In this document: in pieces, positions 1,708 to 45,089 of the stretch
How positions within the stretch are numbered: position 1 is the first letter of the stretch
Layout: each line of letters opens with the position of its first letter
DNA from: Microlunatus soli
Lineage (GTDB): Bacteria > Actinomycetota > Actinomycetes > Propionibacteriales > Propionibacteriaceae
Reading direction: 5' to 3'
DNA length: 64,000 bases
NCBI RefSeq assembly: GCF_900105385.1
Contig: NZ_LT629772.1
Span: 5,208,001-5,272,000 of the forward strand
The notes under the pieces: generated by a model
Told to the model about the DNA's origin: nothing
The model's database searches: none
What the model saw: only the letters and a program-made list of their open reading frames with translations
Position numbers and translations under genes: made by a program

Positions 1708-2712
1708 TCAGTGCTCGTCGTAATGATCGCGATGGACGGCGTGCCGATGTCCGTCGTGCAGGTAGTCGACATGATCACCGTGGGTGACCGACGGGTGATC
1801 ACAGTCCGGGTCGCCATGGGTGTGCTGATGAGTGCCGGCCAGCACGTGGGGCGTCGGGATCCCTGCCGGGGCAGGGGTTTCGGGTAACACCACCGGTTCT
1901 CGTCGGCGTCGTCGCAGCAGCGCCGAGACCGGCCAGCTGATCGCGAACACGACGATCGCCAGCACCACGATCAGTGCGCCGGGCGCGGCATTGGCATAGA
2001 AGGATCCGGCGGCTCCACCGACCGCGACGACCACACCGATCACCATCGCCGTGCCGAGTGCGGCATAGAAGCCCGGCACCAGATTGTGGGCGGCGGCCAC
2101 CGGCACCACCATCAGCGCACTCACCAGCAGCAGACCGACCGTACGCATCGACAACGAGACGGTGATCGCGGCCAGCACCACCACGACGATGTTGTACAGC
2201 CGCACCTTCAGGCCGAGCACCCGGGCGAAGTCCTCGTCCGCGCTGACCGCGAACAGCTGCGGCGCCAGGCCGACGGTCGGCACCAGCACGACGACCGCGA
2301 GCACGGTGATCAGGACCAGGTCCGAGGAGGTGACGGTGGTCAGGGATCCGAACAGGTACTGGGACAACGCACCGGTGCCGCCGCCCGCGAACGCCGACAT
2401 CAGCACGCCGGTCGCCAGACCGCCGTAGAAGAGGATCGCCAGTCCGACGTCACCGGTGGCCTTGCCCCGTTGGCGCAGTACTTCCACCAGCACCGAGCCG
2501 GCGACACAGACGATGACCGCAACCGGGATCGGCGCCGTTCCGGTCAACAGTGCCAGCCCGACGCCGGCGATCGCCACGTGGCCGAGACCGTCGCCGAGCA
2601 GGCTGAGCCGGCGTTGCACGATGTAGGAACCGATTGCCGGGGCGATCAGACCGGTCAGCAGCGCAGCGATCAGAGCCCGCTGCATGAACGGATACCGCAG
2701 CAGTTCGATCAT
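1708..2712 (-). CDS. znuB: Zinc ABC transporter, membrane subunit
   Basis: 334 aa, about eight membrane helices, typical ABC-3 family permease (GSYIVQRRLSLLGDGLGHVAIAGVGLA near the N-terminus, which faces the ATPase). It forms the membrane channel for zinc together with ZnuC and receives metal from ZnuA. The start ATG overlaps the znuC stop by 4 bases, so the two are translationally coupled. The last ~45 residues are an unusual histidine- and aspartate-rich cytoplasmic tail (THQHTHGDPDCDH, DGHRHAVHRDHYDEH), probably a zinc-binding buffer; this supports zinc, not manganese, as substrate. Confidence 0.9.
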   Translation of the reverse strand: MIELLRYPFMQRALIAALLTGLIAPAIGSYIVQRRLSLLGDGLGHVAIAGVGLALLTGTAPIPVAVIVCVAGSVLVEVLRQRGKATGDVGLAILFYGGLATGVLMSAFAGGGTGALSQYLFGSLTTVTSSDLVLITVLAVVVLVPTVGLAPQLFAVSADEDFARVLGLKVRLYNIVVVVLAAITVSLSMRTVGLLLVSALMVVPVAAAHNLVPGFYAALGTAMVIGVVVAVGGAAGSFYANAAPGALIVVLAIVVFAISWPVSALLRRRRREPVVLPETPAPAGIPTPHVLAGTHQHTHGDPDCDHPSVTHGDHVDYLHDGHRHAVHRDHYDEH

Positions 2713-44078: not shown

Positions 44079-44619
44079 ATGAGCGATGATCATGAAAGCA
44101 GCGGTATCGAGTTGCTGCTGATCGGCGGCCGGTCCGGGGTCGGCAAGTCGACGGTGGGCGCGGAGATCTCGGCCCAGCTCGAACAAGCCGCCGTCCGGCA
44201 CGCCTACATCGAGGGCGACGTGATGGACTGGTGCTATCCGAAGCGGCAGGACCTCTTCGAGAAGAACCTGTCCGACCTGACACGCAACTACCTGTCGTTC
44301 GGGTATCGGCGATTCGTCTACACCAACACGGCATCGGTCAAGGTCGCCGACGAGATCGCCGGTCTGATGCCTGCGCCGGCTCGGACGATCGGTGCGCTGC
44401 TGACCTGTGAGGACGACACGGCGGCTGCCCGGTTGCGGAGCCGGGAGGTGGGCAGCGAACTCGACGTGCACCTGCGGCGGACCGGCATCGTCGCCCGCGA
44501 GTTCAAGGCGCTGCGGCTGCCGGACTGGGCGATCGAGGTGTCGACCGATGGTCGGGGCGGTCGTCGACATCGCACGCCAGGTGATCACCTGGGCCGGCTG
44601 GTGGCCCGTCGCGGGATGA
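44079..44619 (+). CDS. P-loop kinase, 3' end out of frame (probable frameshift)
   Basis: Starts at ATG 44079. LLLIGGRSGVGKSTVGAEI is a Walker A loop near residue 20; the fold resembles gluconate/chloramphenicol-type small kinases or AAA ATPases. In frame 3 it is open to the acetyltransferase, but after DWAIEVSTDGR the expected ending (VVDIARQVITWAGWW) reads only in the next frame, ending at TGA 44617-44619. Removing one G of GGGG at 44554-44557 restores a 180-aa kinase whose stop overlaps the next ATG (44616) by 4 bases. Either a sequencing error or a real frameshift that fuses the two genes into 324 residues. Confidence 0.65.
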
Positions 44620-45053
44620 CCAGCTCTGCGACAATCGAAGGAATGGGCTTCGAGGTCATCCCGCATCGGTTGCGCGCTATCGAGCCGGCGGCGATCCGCC
44701 GACTGTACGAGGCGGAGGGCTGGTGGCCGGAGCGCTCCGAGTCGGCGATCGGCCGGGTGCTGGCCAACGGTCCGGCGGTCGGTGGTTGGGACGGTGATCA
44801 ACTCGTCGGCTTCGCCCGTGCGGTCAGCGATGGTGAGTTCCGGGCCTACGTCGAGGATGTGGTCGTTGCGCCGTCACACCGGGGTGCTGGCGTCGGCGCG
44901 GCGCTGATGGACGGCTTGCAAGCAGAGCTGGCCGGCATCGACGTCGTCAGTCTCTTCTGTCACGGCGAGCTGCCGGCCTTCTACGAACGCTTCGGCTACC
45001 GCTTCACGCGACAGCGGGTCGGCCACCGACCCGATGATCAACAAGGGCCCTGA
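44616..45053 (+). CDS. GNAT N-acetyltransferase
   Basis: 145 aa if started at ATG 44616. FEVIPHRLRAIEPAAIRRLYEAEGWW, GWDGDQLVGFARAVSDGEFRAYVEDVVVAPSHRGAGVGAALMDGL (acetyl-CoA site RGxGxG/A) and VSLFCHGELPAFYERFGY are GNAT motifs. In the present reading frame it is the C-terminal half of a fusion with the kinase; the ATG and overlap with the shifted kinase stop suggest it was a separate gene. The last four residues (QQGP) and the stop come from the repeat/terminator at 45043-45089. Confidence 0.75.
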   Translation: MTSSATIEGMGFEVIPHRLRAIEPAAIRRLYEAEGWWPERSESAIGRVLANGPAVGGWDGDQLVGFARAVSDGEFRAYVEDVVVAPSHRGAGVGAALMDGLQAELAGIDVVSLFCHGELPAFYERFGYRFTRQRVGHRPDDQQGP

Positions 45054-45089
45054 GCCTGTCGAAGGATCTTCGACAGGCTCAGGGCCCTT
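45043..45089. terminator. Perfect 22-bp hairpin made of two inverted repeats
   Basis: Two copies of the GAGCCTGTCGAAG repeat face each other with a 3-base loop, giving a perfect 22-bp stem (45043-45064 and 45068-45089) between the convergent acetyltransferase and aldo/keto reductase. It overlaps the acetyltransferase stop codon and is likely a bidirectional terminator formed from mobile repeats. Confidence 0.75.

Follow-up and report, generated by a model that had tools for sequence, protein, structure and literature searches.

The open frame and its parts

In the window, meaning the whole stretch of 64,000 nucleotides that was analysed (positions 5208001-5272000 of a genome that is 100% complete in one contig of 6,732,914 bases), a frame of 324 amino acids lies open on the plus strand from the ATG at 44079 to the TGA that ends at 45053, and within it a P-loop kinase runs into a GNAT acetyltransferase. 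A sequence-only reading of this DNA had described such a 324-residue kinase-GNAT frame at 44079-45053, and our reading of the frames confirmed it. An alternative start at GTG 44046 gives 335 amino acids for the same open frame, and GGAG precedes the kinase ATG at 44079. The locus divides into the following parts.

44079..44555, plus strand: kinase body, residues 1-159; the profile of the relatives aligns to residue 159, and the P-loop GGRSGVGKST is intact
44550..44560, plus strand: interval in which the kinase loses its frame, including GGGG 44554-44557; open-frame homology ends at residues 158-163 in relatives whose match extends to there, and other-frame homology starts from 44560
44556..44615, plus strand: out-of-frame linker joining the halves of the apparent fusion, GGRRHRTPGDHLGRLVARRG; it does not resemble the last part of the kinase profile
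44560..44619, plus strand: displaced kinase C-terminal helix in the other frame, with its stop TGA at 44617-44619; it matches the profile and is modelled as the last helix in relative L058
44616..45053, plus strand: GNAT acetyltransferase gene; Pfam Acetyltransf_7, 1.6e-12; stand-alone relatives L002 and L059

The N-terminus of the kinase fits the P-loop pattern GxxGxGK[ST] (as GGRSGVGKST), and residues 1-159 scored 172.7 bits against a profile of 26 kinase relatives, the best of which are approximately 40 to 50% identical to it. Its P-loop and overall fold are shared with the small-molecule P-loop kinases (the gluconate, shikimate, and APS kinase fold, here an uncharacterised actinobacterial family); the top Foldseek matches of the L058 model were gluconokinase 3t61, tunicamycin resistance protein 2vli, and shikimate kinase 1zyu. 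Unlike these kinases, it has its C-terminal helix out of frame and reaches no named NCBIfam family at cut-off, the best being garosamine_AAA at 23.9 bits versus 170. Searching PDB sequences for the kinase body yielded weak matches only, led by 2bdt (E 0.0038).

The part read from 44616 matched Pfam PF13508 (Acetyltransf_7) with 1.6e-12 and 48.1 bits against a cut-off of 27, which places it among the GNAT acetyltransferases (Acetyltransf_7/Acetyltransf_1); in contrast to known GNAT families, it reached the cut-off of no specific NCBIfam family. Its closest relatives stand alone, with L002 (same genus, genome G004) being 59% identical and L059 44%. Because both begin, in the alignment, at the window's MGFEVIP, the true acetyltransferase start may be ATG 44643 rather than ATG 44616. 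The ATGA overlap that had been proposed earlier is present in the letters (TGA 44617-44619 over ATG 44616). The kinase relative in G004, L032, is on a different contig from L002.

Two observations concern the surroundings of the acetyltransferase genes. In G004 a tRNA-Arg gene (1950-2026, minus strand; region L002:1492-2026) sits immediately upstream of the stand-alone relative, and tRNA genes are usual insertion sites for mobile DNA. In the window, a dispersed repeat, CCTTCGACAGGCTCAGGG, is present at 45045-45087 as two inverted copies that make up a 20-pair hairpin with a terminator-like tail on the minus strand, and this hairpin supplies the stop codon of the acetyltransferase. Across the window and another 400 kb sampled from its genome, the repeat occurs 11 times when no more than one mismatch is allowed.

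The kinase ending and the frame slip

The tblastn match to the query reached residues 158-163 and no further in 21 of the 26 kinase relatives, and ended earlier in the other five (L034, L022, L007, L017, and L073). Reading each relative as far as its own stop shows that 25 of the 26 carry in frame the ending ..TDGR-V-DIA--V---GW, for example TAGRAVVDIADEIICLTAW in L058, TDGRAVIDIARDVVAATGW in L062, and TDDRPVPDIARDVLAATGW in L035. The sole relative without this tail, L017, is a longer and distant protein that is counted within the 26. In the window, the C-terminal helix with the A...W ending that is typical of the family is found in the other frame only. There it reads VVDIARQVITWAGWWPVAG from 44560 to the stop at 44617-44619, as the sequence-only reading had it, and the ending AVVDIARQVITWAGW is closest in wording to that of L058.

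We scored this tail against the final columns of a profile that was built from nine kinase relatives and left the window out. The other frame gave +19.4 bits over a short match of 15 aligned residues, versus -11.6 bits for the same DNA in the open frame and -14.3 bits in the third frame. Only one of the 99,764 stop-free 15-residue reads from the six frames of the window reaches the score of the tail, the tail itself being among these reads. The open-frame linker, which had been described as nonsense, does not match the end of the kinase profile (-11.6 bits); against the 26-relative profile it scored -1.1 bits, aligned at a different place. In that larger profile the kinase body occupies positions 2-161 and the tail positions 163-177, so the tail takes up where the body leaves off. 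By codon position, the G+C content of the tail DNA comes to 0.70/0.60/0.90 when read in the tail's frame, against 0.95/0.70/0.60 in the open frame and 0.65/0.47/0.87 in the kinase body; it is gene-like only in the tail's own frame. In the predicted fold of L058 (18 sequences, mean pLDDT 93.5), the tail makes up the final helix (residues 155-166), which comes after the last strand.

Compared with the kinase family, the slip adds one extra base, whose place can be narrowed only to the stretch from codon 158 (44550) to the first tail codon that is conserved (44560). The GGGG run at 44554-44557, after which the kinase ending had been said to read in another frame, does exist, but it is only one candidate place within 44550-44560, and it is not special, since the window holds 157 runs of exactly four G. 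The presence of a G run at the slip might nevertheless bring to mind programmed +1 frameshifting or slippage that yields both an intact kinase and the fusion. A run of four G is short and common, however, and the kinase relatives need no shift, as their tail is in frame in 25 of 26 cases. The codons at the slip, GGT CGG GGC GGT, offer neither a stop nor an obvious pause of the kind associated with +1 sites. With no conserved frame break and an ordinary sequence at the slip, we reject programmed frameshifting and consider it the most improbable explanation of the locus.

The two halves in other genomes

To see how the halves are arranged elsewhere, we searched for the 324-residue protein in 57 genomes of relatives and in sets of 20 genomes from the genus, 198 from the family, 391 from the order, and 394 from the class; these sets share genomes, and the window's own genome is in every one of them. 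Weak relatives are under-counted in the order, family, and class searches, because these scored some first-look candidates per genome and applied strict E-value limits. When 53 loci were tested with both halves by tblastn, 26 matched the kinase only, 23 the acetyltransferase only, three neither, and one both. The only locus with both halves was L001, the window's own; L015, L024, and L028, which lack a tblastn match, stand outside the kinase and acetyltransferase counts. Most of the compared loci span only about 1.5 kb on each side of the match, and linkage was tested within that reach. The only match from a scan of genome contigs was a distant acetyltransferase from an alphaproteobacterial MAG (L036).

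Three matches appeared to span the junction. L057 (112-308) and L059 (161-317) proved to be stand-alone acetyltransferases with an unrelated upstream reading frame, and L067 (10-182) a kinase that ends in a tail of its own.

In favour of an evolved bifunctional kinase-acetyltransferase stands the one frame that continues without a break over 324 codons. This architecture was found in no relative, however, its one occurrence in 53 loci being the window itself; moreover, the linker is out-of-frame kinase DNA, and the conserved last helix of the kinase is displaced. Relatives sharing the frame and a conserved linker had been named beforehand as the sign of a true fusion, and none was found among the 53 loci. 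As no other searched genome has both halves together, we reject an evolved fusion as very improbable.

We conclude instead, with a probability of roughly 0.93, that two ordinary neighbouring genes, a small kinase and an acetyltransferase, have been joined by a single-base frame slip, through a sequencing error or a recent mutation, and that they read as one long gene because of this slip. The break occurs in one genome and both pieces match one family, as in a singleton frameshift. On this reading the window holds two separate consecutive genes, one for a small-molecule P-loop kinase followed by one for a GNAT acetyltransferase. One extra base within 44550-44560 puts the last kinase helix out of frame and takes the kinase stop out of the reading frame, so that the frame runs on into the acetyltransferase. 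Such a singleton event, showing no later decay, would be a base error left in the assembly or else an indel that arose very recently in the sequenced strain. The earlier proposal of an assembly error or a very recent mutation is supported by both counts, namely both halves together in one of 53 loci and an in-frame counterpart of the displaced ending in 25 of the 26 kinase relatives. The frames, the displaced conserved ending, and the separate state of the two genes in relatives are observed; from them we infer that the event is recent, and an error or a mutation rather than a selected fusion.

Assembly error or recent indel

With a codon-usage frame tracker, we examined the window plus 20 stretches of 20 kb, 464 kb in total, and found 58 same-strand frame switches, 57 of which have a stop nearby. 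The one switch without a stop (L053 at 15481) falls in a Ser/Pro/Gly-rich, low-complexity repeat tail read in one continuous frame and is not a frameshift. At about half power, the tracker thus detected no further credible frameshift in these 464 kb: with one base inserted at random, 104 of 200 trials gave a stop-free call, which makes the low-indel result weak, and it did not flag the window's own short kinase tail. The result suggests that the assembly is not visibly rich in indels, while a single error is still compatible with it.

One explanation is a residual base error in the assembly, in which case the strain would have two normal genes, overlapping or nearly touching. Apart from the slip, both genes are intact and the tail is undecayed, as an error would leave them; against this, the rate of other frameshifts in the sampled part of the genome is low. 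We put this explanation close to an even chance. The other, to which we would give a little under even odds, is a real and very recent indel in the strain, the cell then making a chimeric kinase-acetyltransferase with a non-native linker. This agrees with a genome of one contig that is 100% complete and with the lack of another credible frameshift in the 464 kb. The literature bears on both sides: PMC3711429 holds that indel mutation, rather than sequencing error, is the likelier cause when a singleton is frameshifted close to its 3' end, but also that database-validated singletons are expected to be mostly sequencing errors, and according to PMC8812927, long-read-only bacterial assemblies usually keep homopolymer-length errors. 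The slip is both a database-validated singleton and near the 3' end of its gene, and the choice between error and mutation is near even.

Should the cell really carry the slip, we would expect it to make a chimeric protein whose last kinase helix is damaged, and translation of the acetyltransferase from its own start may continue. The indel would then be a small example of a one-step fusion from a closely spaced gene pair. We offer, tentatively and at somewhat less than even odds, the reading that the locus is a just-born fusion gene, in which one indel in a closely spaced or ATGA-overlapping pair produced a fusion by stop loss and a random linker replaced the last kinase helix. For annotation, which is where the slip mainly matters, an automatic pipeline would record a bifunctional kinase-acetyltransferase at a place where the relatives show two genes. 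The singleton frameshifted genes of GeneTack, as described in PMC3711429, likewise concern one genome and two frames of a conserved protein; the window's slip differs from them in that it also merges the gene with its downstream neighbour.
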